A stretch of 64,000 bases of DNA. Source: Flavobacteriaceae bacterium UJ101 (GTDB lineage: Bacteria; Bacteroidota; Bacteroidia; Flavobacteriales; UJ101). The notes beneath the pieces are model-generated. The model was not told the DNA's origin. It saw nothing but the letters and a program-made list of their open reading frames with translations, and made no database searches. Position numbers and translations under genes: made by a program. The stretch covers positions 1,746,501 through 1,810,500 of the forward strand of contig CP016269.1 in the NCBI GenBank assembly GCA_001880285.1. Reading direction: 5' to 3'. Positions 5,224-39,360 of the stretch are shown piece by piece (positions within the stretch are counted from its first letter, which is position 1; every line of letters starts with the position of its first letter).

Positions 5224-8172
5224 TTATTTTAGTTTGAAATTTAATCGGGCAAATAAGTAGCGTCCTCCATAACCAAATTGAGTGTTTCTTGAGTATGGGA
5301 AACGATTGGTTGTTGTAAATTCTGGATCTGCTTCTTCAGGGTAAATGTCAAAGATATTGTTAGCTCCTAACGTTAAGGTCGCTACTTCTTTGAAAGTATA
5401 ACCGATACTTAAATCGGTAACAAGTTTGGCTCCATAAGTGTTGTCTATATGACCTATGACATTATTGTTCTCATCATAGCGGTTAAAATCAGTTCTGGTG
5501 CTTAATTCTTTCACTTCTCCAAAATAAGAGTTGCGTAAAAAGAAATTCCAGTTTCTAAAACTTAGTAAATGAGAAAGATTTCCTTTCGTTCTAGGGGTAG
5601 ATTCTTCTAAAATTAATTTGGAACGATTGCTAAAAAACTGATCTTCAGCTAAGGTTAGGGTTGAAGGGATGTTGACATTTGTTACATTCGTTTTAGATAG
5701 GGTTCCAGATAACGTATTGGTTAGCTTTAAGTCTTGCCCTAATCTTGCTTTATGCTCAATTACAACATCTAATCCCATGGTTTCAGTATCAGCTGTGTTA
5801 GCAAAGAAACGAACACGATCTACACCAGCTTGGTCAAAAAGGTTTCGTAATTCTTCTGCCCCTTCTGCGGTGTCGTCATCGCTTGGACGACTAATATTTT
5901 CGGTCATTACGATACGATCATTGATTTGAATATAATAACCATCTAAGGTGATTTTTAAGTTGACACTTGGGATTTTTCCAGTAAAACCAGCGCTGTAGCT
6001 CATGGATTTCTCTTCTTCTAATTGTGGGATTCCAAAGGCTCTAGCAATAGCACTTGTATTTGCAAAGGTTCCTACTTCAAAAATTTCACTTGTAGTGGTG
6101 TCAAAATTGGTTGCGGTTGAAGTAAAATTAATTTGATGTAAAGAAGGAGCTCTAAATCCACTGCTAATAGCACCACGAATGGCCATATGATCATTTAATT
6201 TATAACGAGAAGCTATTTTAAAGTTTAGTGTAGATCCAAAGTCTGAATATTCTTCAAAACGTAAAGCACCGCTTACTAAAAACTGATCTGTAATATCCAA
6301 TTCTCCATCTGCGTAAATACCGATAGCATTTCGGTTGCTTGTTCCCGCATTGCTAGGAGCTATGCCTCCAAAACCTTGTGCGCCACCTGGTCTTGGATCT
6401 TGAGTGTTTCCAAAGAAATCAGTAACATACAAATTATCAGGAGTTGAGTTAAGAACAGGGTCTCCGTTAATGTCATAACGAGTATATGAAGCTTCTTGTC
6501 CTGCTGTTTGTTCGTATTCTTCAAAACGGTATTCTGCTCCTAAAGCTAAATGGAATCCTGCTAAAACATCAAATTTTCTTGATAAATCAAAATTAGTGGT
6601 ATTTTGTAAAAAACCATAACCTCCTGCTTCTAATTCATTTGGAGAAATATTTTGCAATGAAGCATTACTAGTGTTCTTTATGGTGTAATCGAAAGTGTTT
6701 CTACCCCAAGTGTTACTAAAATCAGCATCCCATTCTCCAATTTTTCCACGAATTCCAACTGCTAAAGATTGGTCTTTTATATCGGTGGTAATTAAGGGTA
6801 AGTATCCATCTATATAAGAAGGGGTGTACGTTCTATTTTGGTAAGGTAGGCGATAAAAAGCAGAAGCTTCTCCGTTTCGGTAACTTAAACCTCCAAAACT
6901 ATAGATTTCAGCATTTTCACTAACTGGAATTGCTGAGTTAAAGAAAAATTTCCCTCCACGCGTTTTAGATTGTCCAAAACGTAAATTATAATCGGAACGA
7001 TTTTGGCCACGAGTGGCTAATTCATCATCTGTTACATCTACATTTAAAATACTTTGTAAATCTTCTATGGAAGTTGCGTTAGCGATGTTGTTTTGTAAAT
7101 CAGTACTGAAATACGACACATCTTGAGCATACTGTTGAATTAAATCTAAATTGGAGCCTAATGTATTTAAATTAGCTCCGTTTTGATTGGCTACATTTTC
7201 AATAGCATTATAGGCATGAAAAATTTGTCCAGTATAATCTCCATTTCGATCCGTCCATCCACGAGATTCAAATTGTCCTGTGAAATTAATAAAACCACCA
7301 TTTTCTCCGATTGGTAAACCATAATTTAATCCTAAATTGAAGGTTTCACCATCTACGTCTTTATCTTCACCGTGATTTTTGGTGAAATTAGCTCCTGTGT
7401 CTACAATGACATCTAATTCATTGGTAGCGGTTTTTAATACGATATTAATAACACCAGCAATGGCATCTGAACCGTATTGTGCTGCAGCACCATCACGCAA
7501 AATTTCAATACGTTGGATCGCATTTGATGGAATGGCGTTCATATCGGTTCCTGTGCTTCCGCGACCTACCGTACCGTTAATGTTTACTAAAGCAGTGTTA
7601 TGTCTTCTTTTTCCATTAATTAAAACCAATACTTGATCAGGGCCTAAACCTCTTAAAGTGGCAGGGTCGATGTGATCGGTTCCATCAGAAGCGGCTTGGG
7701 TGTTCGAGCTAAAAGAGGGAGCTGCATAATTTAAGATTTGATTGACTGTTACTTGTGGTGCAACAGAAGTTAACTCTTCAATATCTAAAATATCTACAGG
7801 TACAGGAGTGTCAATTTGGGTTCTTCCTTTGCTTCGAGTTCCTACAAAAACAACATCATCAATGATACCTTCATCGTCGCTTGATAATGAAATGGTTTGA
7901 AAGGATTCTGATGCAGAAATTTCTTTTGTTTTAAAACCGATAGCATCAACAGTTAATATGGTGTTTTTTTCTGTTTCTATTTCAAAATTACCATCAAGAT
8001 CTGTTGTGGTTTCTTTTCCTTCTTGAGTTGAAATGCTGGCTTCAGGAATTCCTTCGTTATTAGAATCAGTTATTTTACCTTTTGTAATAATGGTCTGGGC
8101 AAAGATAAAATTGGCCAGTAATAGTGTTAAAATCGTAAAACGATTTCGATTGAGTAAGTTTTTTGTTCTCAT
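5224..8172 (-). CDS. TonB-dependent receptor with N-terminal carboxypeptidase-regulatory-like domain, behind a Cys4 leader peptide
   Basis: The 982-residue outer-membrane receptor has a signal peptide (FTILTLLLANFIFAQ). Next comes a carboxypeptidase-regulatory-like beta-sandwich (about residues 28-105: GKITDSNNEGIPEASISTQE). The plug follows (about 105-250), with the distinctive segments ATLRGLGPDQVLVLINGKRR and EILRDGAAAQYGSDAIAGVI. A 22-strand-type barrel ends in RYLFARLNFKLK. The GKRRHNTALVN / GRGSTGTDMNAIP plug marks a broad receptor family with poorly known ligands. No SusD-like partner is adjacent, so it is not a SusCD pair. The 5' region (8173-8420) holds a short ORF ending in four Cys codons within RNA stems. 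I infer that receptor expression responds to cysteine or Cys-tRNA supply. The substrate could be a sulfur source or a metal complex, but this is unproven. Confidence 0.9.
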   Translation of the reverse strand: MRTKNLLNRNRFTILTLLLANFIFAQTIITKGKITDSNNEGIPEASISTQEGKETTTDLDGNFEIETEKNTILTVDAIGFKTKEISASESFQTISLSSDDEGIIDDVVFVGTRSKGRTQIDTPVPVDILDIEELTSVAPQVTVNQILNYAAPSFSSNTQAASDGTDHIDPATLRGLGPDQVLVLINGKRRHNTALVNINGTVGRGSTGTDMNAIPSNAIQRIEILRDGAAAQYGSDAIAGVINIVLKTATNELDVIVDTGANFTKNHGEDKDVDGETFNLGLNYGLPIGENGGFINFTGQFESRGWTDRNGDYTGQIFHAYNAIENVANQNGANLNTLGSNLDLIQQYAQDVSYFSTDLQNNIANATSIEDLQSILNVDVTDDELATRGQNRSDYNLRFGQSKTRGGKFFFNSAIPVSENAEIYSFGGLSYRNGEASAFYRLPYQNRTYTPSYIDGYLPLITTDIKDQSLAVGIRGKIGEWDADFSNTWGRNTFDYTIKNTSNASLQNISPNELEAGGYGFLQNTTNFDLSRKFDVLAGFHLALGAEYRFEEYEQTAGQEASYTRYDINGDPVLNSTPDNLYVTDFFGNTQDPRPGGAQGFGGIAPSNAGTSNRNAIGIYADGELDITDQFLVSGALRFEEYSDFGSTLNFKIASRYKLNDHMAIRGAISSGFRAPSLHQINFTSTATNFDTTTSEIFEVGTFANTSAIARAFGIPQLEEEKSMSYSAGFTGKIPSVNLKITLDGYYIQINDRIVMTENISRPSDDDTAEGAEELRNLFDQAGVDRVRFFANTADTETMGLDVVIEHKARLGQDLKLTNTLSGTLSKTNVTNVNIPSTLTLAEDQFFSNRSKLILEESTPRTKGNLSHLLSFRNWNFFLRNSYFGEVKELSTRTDFNRYDENNNVIGHIDNTYGAKLVTDLSIGYTFKEVATLTLGANNIFDIYPEEADPEFTTTNRFPYSRNTQFGYGGRYLFARLNFKLK

Positions 8173-8231: not shown

Positions 8232-8372
8232 AGATTCACCAATTATGCGTATTCCAAAATAGTTTTAATAAAATAAGGATATAAATTGAATAATGAAATG
8301 ATCATATAAGTGAATCTGTGTGATCTTGCTTAGCAGCAGCAACACATTGTACAACTTATATTTATGATCATT
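8232..8372 (-). promoter_or_regulatory. Putative leader-peptide attenuator RNA upstream of the TonB receptor
   Basis: Three pairings are seen on the minus strand. (1) A 15-bp outer stem pairs 8354-8372 with 8297-8311, with a 4-base bulge at 8359-8362; the 5' arm lies inside the leader ORF. (2) An inner hairpin at 8319-8346 (TGTG TTGCT / AGCAA GAT CACA) holds the Cys codons in its stem and loop. (3) AGATTCAC at 8310-8317, just inside the outer stem and overlapping its 3' arm by two bases, can instead pair with GTGAATCT at 8232-8239, 60-67 bases before the receptor ATG. A ribosome stalled on the Cys codons would open pairings 1 and 2. There is no T-run after pairing 3, so control could be translational or Rho-dependent. 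The rest of 8173-8638 holds only the two divergent promoters. Confidence 0.55.
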
Positions 8373-8380
8373 TTATTCAT
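8330..8380 (-). CDS. Putative leader peptide MNKMIINISCTMCCCC, regulator of the downstream TonB receptor
   Basis: This 16-codon ORF starts at the ATG at 8380 and ends at TAA (8332-8330), 157 bases upstream of the receptor start codon. Five of its 16 residues are cysteine, and the last four codons before the stop are all Cys (TGT TGC TGC TGC). Clustered codons for one amino acid at the end of a tiny ORF, inside RNA secondary structure and upstream of a gene, is the classical design of an attenuation leader peptide such as those for Trp and His. A candidate promoter box and an 18-base palindrome lie directly upstream. An in-frame internal ATG at 8371 is an alternative start. It is unlikely to encode a functional protein. 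Confidence 0.65.
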   Translation of the reverse strand: MNKMIINISCTMCCCC

Positions 8381-8393
8381 TTTTTTGAAGTAT

Positions 8394-8411
8394 TAGTCTC
8401 AATTGAGACTA
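8394..8411. repeat. Perfect 18-base palindrome TAGTCTCAATTGAGACTA at the leader 5' end
   Basis: The two halves TAGTCTCAA / TTGAGACTA are exact inverted copies without a spacer. It begins one base downstream of the TAAGTTTG box and ends 14 bases before the leader ORF. It therefore sits at the predicted transcription start, and could be an operator or a 5'-terminal RNA hairpin. Confidence 0.6.
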
Positions 8412-8419
8412 CAAACTTA
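8412..8419 (-). promoter_or_regulatory. Candidate minus-7 promoter box (TAAGTTTG) for leader ORF and TonB receptor
   Basis: TAAGTTTG on the minus strand is an exact TAnnTTTG match and identical to the rpsL box. The predicted start of transcription is near 8406, 26 bases before the leader ATG. No good TTTG minus-33 element is seen in the A/T-rich stretch upstream. Confidence 0.55.
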
Positions 8420-8573
8420 CAAATTTTTTTTATTACAGTTTATATGTTTTTTAAAAAAGAATTTGGTATTCTAAATATGAAATCTTTTATTTTTTAAGTT
8501 AAAATTGGTTTTTAAATAAAAAATAGGGGGTTAATGTTATTTTTTTGTAAATTTAATACTAAATAAGGTTATT

Positions 8574-8638: not shown

Positions 8639-10828
8639 ATGTCTACATTAAGATTTAAAGCATTAGCAGATGTACACAACAGAAAGCCTGTTGATGTGAA
8701 AATTCCAGGGAAATTATCTTCTTTATTTTCAGAGAATGTATTTTCAGAATCTGTAATGAAAGAGTTTTTGACTAAAGATGCTTATAAGGCGGTTTTAGGT
8801 GCAATTAATAAAGGAACAAAAATAGAACGTACTTTAGCAGATCAAGTAGCAGTGGCAATGAAAGATTGGGCGTTGTCAAAAGGGGCAACACATTATACGC
8901 ACTGGTTTCAACCTTTAACAGGTGCTACAGCTGAAAAGCATGATGCTTTTTTTGAACCAATAGGAGAAGGGCGTGCTATGGAACGTTTTAACGGTTCGAT
9001 GTTGGTACAACAAGAGCCTGATGCTTCTTCTTTTCCAAATGGAGGGATTCGTAATACTTTTGAAGCAAGAGGTTATACAGCTTGGGATCCATCTTCTCCA
9101 GCCTTTGTAATTGATACAACACTTTGTATTCCTTCTGTATTTATATCATATACAGGGGAAACCTTAGATAATAAAATACCTTTATTAAGAGCATTAAGTG
9201 CAGTAGATGATGCGGCAACAGACGTAGCACAATATTTTGATAAACATGTTCGAAAAGTAAATGCAACATTAGGTTGGGAACAAGAATATTTTTTAGTTGA
9301 TGAAGCATTATATAATGCACGACCTGATTTACAGTTGACAGGAAGAACATTGTTAGGTCATGCTCCAGCAAAAGGACAACAATTAGATGATCACTATTTT
9401 GGATCTATTCCTGATCGTGTTCTGTCGTTTATGAAAGAATTGGAAATAGAATCATTGAAATTAGGAATTCCAGTTACAACACGTCATAATGAGGTAGCTC
9501 CTGGGCAATTTGAATTAGCACCTATGTTTGATGAAACCAATCGTGCGGTTGATCAAAACTCTTTATTGATGGATATAATGGAAAAAATTGCCCGTCGTCA
9601 TAGTTTGCGTATTTTATTTCATGAGAAACCTTTTGCAGGTGTAAATGGTTCAGGAAAACATAATAACTGGTCACTAGGGACTGATACGGGGAATAATTTA
9701 TTAGCTCCAGGAAAAACACCTAAGAAAAATTTAGAGTTTTTAACCTTCTTTGTTAATACCATTGCAGCAGTACATAAGCATGCTGATTTATTGAGAGCTG
9801 CTATTGCTTCGGCAAGTAATGATCATCGTTTAGGAGCAAACGAAGCACCTCCTGCTATTATTTCAGTATTTATTGGTTCGCAATTAACCTCTGTATTAGA
9901 TGAATTAGAAAAAGTAACCAAAGGAAAATTATCTCCAGATGAGAAAACAGATCTAAAATTAAATGTAGTAGGGAAGATTCCAGAAATTTTATTGGATAAT
10001 ACAGATCGTAATCGTACATCACCTTTCGCTTTTACAGGGAATAAATTTGAGTTTAGAGCCGTTGGGTCAACAGCAAACTGTGCTGAACCGATGACGGTTT
10101 TAAATACGATTGTTGCAAAACAGTTGAAAGAATTTAAAAAAGAAGTAGATAAATTGGTAGAAGGAGGAATGAAAAAAGATGATGCAATCTTTAATATATT
10201 AAGAGAATCTATCAAAGCTTCACGTTCTATTTTATTTGAAGGAGATGGTTATAGTAAAGAGTGGGAAGATGAAGCGACGAAAAAGCGTAAGTTTTCTAAT
10301 AATAAAACAACTCCAGAAGCTTTAAAAGCTGAATTAACGAAAGATGCGATTAGATTGTATGAAGAAATGGGAATCTTTTCTGAAAGAGAAATTCATGCTC
10401 GTAATGAAATTAAGTTAGAAAAATATGCAACTTTAATTGGTATTGAAGCACAAGTTTTAAGTGATATCTCTCGAAATCATATTGTTCCAACTGCTGTTCG
10501 TTATCAAAATACATTAATCAAAAATGTAAAAGGTTTAAAAGAAGTATTTGGAGATAAGGAGTTTAAAAAACACGCCAAAGAACAACTGGATTTAATTACT
10601 TCTATTTCTGATAATATCTCAGGAATTAAATCAGGTGTAGATAAACTATTAAAAGCAAAACAAAAGGCTGAAGGTATAGAAGATGCTCAAAAACAAGCAG
10701 AAGCTTTTTGTTTTGATGTGAAACCTTTGTTTGATAAGGTAAGAGAATGTTCTGATAGTCTTGAAATGATGGTCGATGATGAGCTTTGGCCGTTACCAAA
10801 ATATAGAGAATTATTATTTTCTAAATAG
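8639..10828 (+). CDS. glnN: Glutamine synthetase type III
   Basis: The enzyme makes glutamine from glutamate, ammonium and ATP. At 729 residues it has the length of type III (GlnN) enzymes and is far longer than type I (about 470). The visible core includes THYTHWFQPLTGATAEKHD, LGWEQEYFLVDEALYNARPD, the ATP/glutamate-site region TTRHNEVAPGQFELAPMFDE, FAGVNGSGKHNNWSLGTDTG, and NRTSPFAFTGNKFEFRAVGS. The last third (from about residue 500) is the helical type III extension. It is monocistronic, with its own promoter and a terminator at 10859. No amtB or glnB gene is adjacent. Confidence 0.97.
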   Translation: MSTLRFKALADVHNRKPVDVKIPGKLSSLFSENVFSESVMKEFLTKDAYKAVLGAINKGTKIERTLADQVAVAMKDWALSKGATHYTHWFQPLTGATAEKHDAFFEPIGEGRAMERFNGSMLVQQEPDASSFPNGGIRNTFEARGYTAWDPSSPAFVIDTTLCIPSVFISYTGETLDNKIPLLRALSAVDDAATDVAQYFDKHVRKVNATLGWEQEYFLVDEALYNARPDLQLTGRTLLGHAPAKGQQLDDHYFGSIPDRVLSFMKELEIESLKLGIPVTTRHNEVAPGQFELAPMFDETNRAVDQNSLLMDIMEKIARRHSLRILFHEKPFAGVNGSGKHNNWSLGTDTGNNLLAPGKTPKKNLEFLTFFVNTIAAVHKHADLLRAAIASASNDHRLGANEAPPAIISVFIGSQLTSVLDELEKVTKGKLSPDEKTDLKLNVVGKIPEILLDNTDRNRTSPFAFTGNKFEFRAVGSTANCAEPMTVLNTIVAKQLKEFKKEVDKLVEGGMKKDDAIFNILRESIKASRSILFEGDGYSKEWEDEATKKRKFSNNKTTPEALKAELTKDAIRLYEEMGIFSEREIHARNEIKLEKYATLIGIEAQVLSDISRNHIVPTAVRYQNTLIKNVKGLKEVFGDKEFKKHAKEQLDLITSISDNISGIKSGVDKLLKAKQKAEGIEDAQKQAEAFCFDVKPLFDKVRECSDSLEMMVDDELWPLPKYRELLFSK

Positions 10829-39303: not shown

Positions 39304-39360
39304 AAGATTCATCATGACTATCGAAGGATTAAGCCTTAATTCATAGTTGGAATCTTTTTA
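39304..39360 (+). promoter_or_regulatory. Nested hairpin upstream of rpsD, candidate S4 autoregulatory leader
   Basis: Three nested helices are visible: AAGATTC/GAATCTT (39304-39310 with 39350-39356), ACTAT/ATAGT (39317-39321 with 39343-39347), and AAGG/CCTT (39324-39327 with 39334-39337). A TTTTT tail follows. The structure ends 13 bases before the rpsD ATG. S4 autoregulates its own operon in several phyla, and S4 leaders have been predicted in Bacteroidota (recalled, not checked). The T-tail also allows an attenuator-type terminator. Confidence 0.6.

Follow-up and report, generated by a model that had tools for sequence, protein, structure and literature searches.

Why does a reading frame of 16 codons, closing with four consecutive cysteine (Cys) codons, stand ahead of the gene of a TonB-dependent receptor in Flavobacteriaceae bacterium UJ101? 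The question arises from a stretch of 64,000 nucleotides of this genome (contig CP016269.1, positions 1,746,501 to 1,810,500; referred to here as the window). From sequence comparison, we propose that this open reading frame (ORF), MNKMIINISCTMCCCC, probably senses cysteine supply in cis, as a leader-peptide attenuator broadly understood, and controls a TonB receptor of a presumed sulfur regulon. The role in cysteine and sulfur metabolism is assigned because similar leaders precede cysteine-pathway operons of the same genome and because receptor orthologs have conserved Cys-run leaders together with S-adenosylmethionine (SAM) riboswitches. The features needed first are the following:

5224 to 8172, minus strand: gene of the TonB-dependent receptor, 982 amino acids, of a subfamily with relatives under SAM riboswitches (domains and ortholog comparison)
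8330 to 8380, minus strand: leader ORF MNKMIINISCTMCCCC, 16 codons, read from the sequence
8333 to 8344, minus strand: presumed stall site, four Cys codons (TGT TGC TGC TGC) abutting the stop (sequence; the position of the Cys run is conserved in related leaders)
8412 to 8419, minus strand: putative −7-type promoter box TAAGTTTG, matching the consensus TAnnTTTG

The consensus TAnnTTTG is that of the −7 element of Bacteroidota. The leader ORF lies between this box and the receptor gene, its stop about 158 nucleotides ahead of the receptor start. Five of its 16 residues are Cys and it ends CCCC-stop, exactly as the first-pass annotation of this DNA had read it. The pattern (TGY)4-TRR had a single match in the window, where 0.00 were expected: none of 100 dinucleotide shuffles contained one. 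The ORF is thus a short frame ahead of a gene, and its clustering of codons for the amino acid sensed is not random, as expected of an attenuator; the Cys-codon leader was confirmed as a genuine feature.

Cys-codon leader ORFs elsewhere in the genome

A search of the genome in full, a single contig of 3.07 Mb, gave eight (TGY)4-TRR sites, three of which are short ORFs in leader position. One is MNKMIINISCTMCCCC before the TonB receptor. The second, MIRINYTYYFSCCCC, precedes a serine acetyltransferase gene (cysE) followed by a cysteine synthase-like gene. The third is a frame ending SSRMFCCSCCCC before DUF2061-like and sulfite reductase genes, with uroporphyrinogen methyltransferase-like and siroheme-synthase-like genes downstream of the latter. 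The cysE product matched TIGR01172 below that model's cut-off; this match apart, gene names in these operons were assigned by reading the protein sequences. With the shorter pattern (TGY)3-TRR the genome gave 34 sites, 30 of which were read, and those with a true stop lay inside or antisense to long frames, except for these three intergenic leaders. The cysE leader was itself flagged in that survey, but only on account of the frame downstream of it, which continues without a stop 5' of its own start. Outside the Cys run, the one feature that they share, the leaders of the three operons show unrelated bodies.

The sulfite reductase operon has an additional Cys-rich leader of 41 codons, MFQTKSHNIQLNFLSNKGNVTSYTMMNSTCMCCQTHLLCCI (L003:1175-1300), ahead of the frame ending SSRMFCCSCCCC, and after it comes a 13-base-pair perfect terminator hairpin with a T run (L003:1330-1361). 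To judge from the sequence, leader and terminator together point to a classical transcription-attenuation layout. Across L003:1175-1361, MFQTKSHNIQLNFLSNKGNVTSYTMMNSTCMCCQTHLLCCI and its terminator are followed by a further ORF ending MFCCSCCCC-stop, which gives the appearance of a tandem cysteine attenuator. Both the cysE leader and the leader that comes first in the sulfite-reductase operon begin 6-7 nucleotides after a −7 box and may be leaderless; the former, MIRINYTYYFSCCCC (L006, minus strand, around 1500-1545), lies 7 nucleotides past the box TATATTTG.

Beyond the window genome, no Cys leader was found before the DUF2061-cysH-cysDN operons of Flavobacteriaceae-like genomes. In L126-L138, also Flavobacteriaceae-like, a gene for an Rrf2-type regulator precedes the DUF2061-cysH-cysDN/sulfite reductase operon at the place where the window genome has Cys leaders, possibly a swap of one regulator type for the other. 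For cysI, matches in other genera came from five genomes only, in mid-operon and without a Cys leader. Regions upstream of cysE elsewhere mostly lacked one as well, with Cys-rich short ORFs in two genome pairs (L074/L091 and L100/L110). These ORFs of genus g3 read MMLFVCNMCCMMWKNPQ..., ...NTLCCMCFCC-stop and ...STFCYMCMCC-stop; their likeness to leaders is suggestive only.

Orthologous receptors and SAM riboswitches

The receptor subfamily, of which the window genome has a single member, was gathered across the order. Over 296 genomes of the order the pattern ATG-(Cys)4-TRA, which excludes TAG and Phe-ended variants, matched the window leader only. Leaders of a related form were present in genus g5 of family f5, called Chryseobacterium-like by inference. 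There, 46 orthologs of one receptor type were found, and a leader of 40-42 codons preceded the gene in all loci read. It typically reads MFKDKGN...SCHFxMxMCCC[F/C/S]-stop, with the end M-C-C-C-x-stop. The frame was kept in 41 aligned leaders, with Met36, Met38, Cys40 and Cys41 in 41/41 and Cys39 in 39/41. The Cys codons swap between TGT and TGC, their variation being almost only synonymous, and the N-terminal part and much of the body diverge. A search for ATG-(TGY)3-NNN-TAR gave 28 matches in 27 g5 genomes, 26 at the receptor leader and 2 overlapping long frames, so that 26 of the 27 genomes carry the motif at that place. Five further g5 genomes (L182, L184, L190, L191 and L192) carry an insert of about 200-250 bases that separates the leader ORF from the receptor hairpin, and the leader was intact in those of the insert-bearing loci that were read closely. 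The first sulfite-reductase leader of the window genome was compared with the Chryseobacterium-like receptor leader (shared pattern MF..K......LNF): depending on the pair, 0.4 to 9% of shuffles scored just as high.

A conserved frame of 40-42 codons in the related genus could also be taken to mean that the product of the ORF is a small functional protein rich in Cys, a metal binder or similar, with no regulatory role. We consider this very unlikely: the g5 frame varies at its N-terminal residues and is conserved mainly around the Cys run by the stop, the window ORF has 16 codons in all, and the leaders of the three operons share nothing but the Cys run.

A hairpin between the g5 leader and the receptor gene showed compensatory changes at three positions (UA/CG, UA/CG/GC/AU and AU/GC), but the long stem that encloses the window leader was not seen in the g5 leaders.

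A link to sulfur metabolism emerged from the riboswitches. A SAM-I/IV riboswitch stood 5' of the g5 leader in 20 of the 20 loci scanned, and likewise in L039, L040 and L152. The S-box (RF00162) lay immediately upstream of other subfamily members (L026, L029, L031 and L042/L151), and in L150 the receptor gene is placed between a metK-like gene preceded by SAM-II and a sulfhydrylase-like gene; a SAM riboswitch follows at a greater distance. Related genera thus have SAM-I and SAM-I/IV riboswitches (RF00162, RF01725) ahead of relatives of this receptor. The window differs: it contains no SAM riboswitch at the gathering threshold, and none was found up to E 0.5 before the window receptor (L009), which therefore lacks the upstream aptamer of that class; the Cys leader occupies its place. 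A maximum-likelihood tree put the window receptor in a clade with SAM-controlled g44 members and Cys-leader g5 members (support 100/99), its exact position being unsettled, and the L151 receptor in the sister group of that clade.

An attenuator would be expected to govern a gene in the supply of the amino acid that it senses. The receptor is a candidate for such a gene, its subfamily being tied to SAM riboswitches and to a methionine locus and its leader type being shared with cysE and sulfite reductase. The first-pass annotation had supposed that the leader reads cysteine and that the receptor serves sulfur or thiol nutrition. Both suppositions gained support, the former from the leaders of the cys operons in the same genome and the conserved Cys runs of orthologs, the latter from the cysE-cysteine synthase and sulfite reductase leaders and, among orthologs, from Cys-run leaders, SAM riboswitches and the methionine-gene locus. 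Cysteine supply is the best reading of the signal. We give an even chance to a wider proposal, namely that Bacteroidota use Cys-codon leaders throughout a regulon extending to outer-membrane uptake. One and the same subfamily of receptors would then be wired to cysteine alone in the window genome, to SAM alone in other genera, or to SAM-I/IV plus a Cys leader in one transcript in the Chryseobacterium-like genus, the last being a switch with two sulfur signals in tandem, placed before an importer of some organic sulfur compound.

In L155-L200, the order upstream of the receptor was SAM-I/IV riboswitch, Cys-run leader ORF, covarying hairpin, receptor, an apparent two-signal sulfur switch. Short Cys ORFs 40-60 nucleotides before a second receptor type (MLYICCFK and MNYFCCR) were dropped as candidates, as they were absent in four further members.

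RNA structure and the proposed route of control

The leader is embedded in RNA structure, for which two arrangements come into question:

8283 to 8379, minus strand: long imperfect stem around the leader ORF (5' arm 8379-8354, 3' arm 8311-8283) with inner hairpin 8346-8319; from folding, z about −3.4
8232 to 8317, minus strand: alternative 8-base-pair pairing of 8317-8310 (AGAUUCAC) with 8239-8232 (GUGAAUCU), a perfect match, which appears in the model if the start of the leader is covered or the 5' arm left out

In the stem, 8379-8363 (plus 8358-8354) pairs with 8311-8297 (plus 8293-8283). The fold had a minimum free energy of −43.7, where shuffles averaged −29.1 (z −3.45), no fold as stable being found in 200 shuffles, and a core of 100 nucleotides gave z −3.41. 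Folding thereby reproduced the outer pairing with 8297-8311 and the inner hairpin 8319-8346 that the first-pass annotation had given. The alternative partner exists as described, with a perfect pairing of 8 base pairs, but its placement near the receptor start was loose, since 8239-8232 lies 60 nucleotides upstream of the receptor ATG at 8172.

Several results weigh against a cysteine-sensing leader at this locus. No Cys leader was found before the closest orthologs (L017, L018, L019, L046 and L047, about 48-54% identical; L046 and L047 come from named Flavobacteriaceae records), so that Cys-leader control of the receptor is not universal. Its spread is patchy, comprising one isolated family and one genus, and the window genome is the only representative of its family in the comparison. 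Alignment of orthologous upstream regions, the check proposed for this locus, accordingly had a mixed result: the codon run is conserved before some 46 orthologs of the distant Chryseobacterium-like genus and absent before the nearest ones. On the structural side, the search for an intrinsic terminator at the receptor locus gave none. In the model, a footprint the size of a ribosome, set on the Cys codons or on the stop, left the outer stem in place; the receptor start was equally accessible in all states stalled at these positions (mean unpaired 0.41 over 8195-8173, and 0.53 over 8195-8156).

The lack of a leader in the nearest orthologs is what would be seen if a short ORF had acquired its Cys run by chance. 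This is the least probable of the explanations that we weighed and hardly credible, given that the shuffles yielded no match, that the genome holds three such leaders, two of them before cysteine-pathway operons, and that the run recurs before orthologous receptors of another genus.

The structural results bear more directly on the mechanism put forward in the first-pass annotation, in which stalling on the Cys codons breaks the outer stem of 15 base pairs and frees 8310-8317 for 8232-8239, switching translation of, or elongation into, the receptor gene. Both pairings do exist, the fold is more stable than shuffles, and the alternative pairing forms with the leader start covered or the 5' arm missing. 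The stem arms, on the other hand, lie outside a footprint on the Cys codons and still pair: the outer stem survives such a stall because its 5' arm sits behind the ribosome, and the 3' arm was freed for 8239-8232 only by a footprint on the leader start. With start-site access constant and an intrinsic terminator absent, neither the opening of the stem nor the altered access or elongation was borne out. The related-genus leaders also show a different, covarying hairpin downstream in place of the long enclosing stem. We therefore regard this switch as unlikely; the folding models are static, and kinetic effects may go beyond them.

Sensing of cysteine supply by the leader may act by another route. 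When charged tRNA-Cys is plentiful, the ribosome would pass the four Cys codons and be released at the stop, and receptor expression would be low; when it is scarce, the ribosome would stall on the Cys run by the stop and receptor expression would rise. Translation of the leader, induction by stalling and the path by which the stall is transmitted are all inferred here. Since the receptor locus has no intrinsic terminator, a stall would be expected to act via Rho or via start access. The stalled ribosome might protect the untranslated stretch of 158 nucleotides from premature Rho-dependent termination, to which we give somewhat less than an even chance. More tentatively, the stall might alter the downstream RNA fold or access to the start site, which would constitute translational attenuation; some room is left for routes not specified here. 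Shielding from Rho or an action on a distal structure would be favoured because the Cys run abuts the stop, a terminator is absent and inserts of about 200 bases lie behind intact leaders in relatives.

Known systems and the surroundings of the leader

The closest counterparts in operation are the cys leaders of actinobacteria. For actinobacterial cys operons, candidate polycysteine leader ORFs lacking an obvious terminator have been predicted, with a suggested involvement of Rho (Seliverstov et al. 2005, PMC1262725). Cysteine-responsive attenuators in mycobacteria are ascribed to Canestrari et al. 2020, as cited in PMC9094748 and PMC13236596. Like the mycobacterial leaders, the window ORF is short, has a Cys run abutting the stop, stands upstream of a presumably sulfur-related gene and comes with no conserved intrinsic terminator; the cysE and first sulfite-reductase leaders of the window genome may share leaderlessness with them as well. 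Unlike them, the window case belongs to another phylum with no sequence relation shown, it has an outer-membrane receptor as its target, the receptor leader, to judge by its position, is not leaderless, and the related genus has a SAM-I/IV riboswitch ahead of the leader.

A likeness in target is offered by CruR (DUF2946), a translated upstream ORF that controls the TonB-dependent transporter gene bfrG of Bordetella pertussis post-transcriptionally through Rho in response to copper, and whose hallmarks are a CXXC copper motif and a C-terminal RAPP arrest motif (PMC9426467). Both ORFs lie upstream of a gene for a TonB-dependent transporter, and this precedent of a Cys-containing upstream ORF before such a gene (PMC9426467) lends some weight to the idea that thiols of the nascent peptide sense a metal or the redox state. 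The window leader differs in its 16 codons, its terminal Cys run and the company of cysteine-pathway genes. Its peptide of 16 amino acids has no RAPP motif and is far too short for this class, the other such leaders of the genome precede cysteine and sulfite-reductase genes, and SAM riboswitches accompany relatives of the receptor; metal or redox sensing is quite improbable, slightly more so than the outer-stem switch.

With the classical trp, his and leu attenuators the window leader shares clustered codons of an amino acid relevant downstream, and the sulfite-reductase operon of the same genome has a terminator, too. Unlike these, the receptor locus lacks an intrinsic terminator and the target is an importer instead of a biosynthetic operon. 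The window case works like the mycobacterial cys leaders and targets what CruR targets; by sequence it belongs to neither.

Neither cysteine leaders in Bacteroidota nor a receptor-SAM-cysteine arrangement turned up in the open-licence papers that were searched. A Cys-leader switch is already described for actinobacterial cysteine-making genes; for a receptor or for this phylum none was found. If the proposal holds, cysteine attenuation, known from biosynthetic operons of actinobacteria, would also operate in Bacteroidota and on transport through the outer membrane. It would provide a clue to the substrate class, organic sulfur, of an uncharacterised TonB receptor subfamily. The Chryseobacterium-like genus would furthermore offer a natural tandem of riboswitch and leader in which SAM and cysteine signals are experimentally separable.

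The promoter box (8419-8412) and the palindrome of 18 bases that the first-pass annotation placed ahead of the leader ORF are both present:

8394 to 8411, no strand assigned: perfect 18-base palindrome TAGTCTCAATTGAGACTA, adjoining the presumed transcript start

The palindrome (8411-8394 in the direction of the leader) may form an RNA hairpin of 7 base pairs or serve as an operator. Genome-wide it is a single exact copy. An operator shared by a regulon was rejected: the genome search gave no second exact copy, and matches with mismatches occurred only at control level.

The intergenic region, on the minus strand, is bounded by a type III glutamine synthetase gene (8639-10828, plus strand) and by the TonB receptor gene, whose product comprises a plug, a beta-barrel and a CarboxypepD_reg N-terminal extension. 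Elsewhere in the window, an S4-Flavobacteria ribosomal protein leader (RF03141, 46.2 bits) was detected at 39316-39348 on the plus strand.
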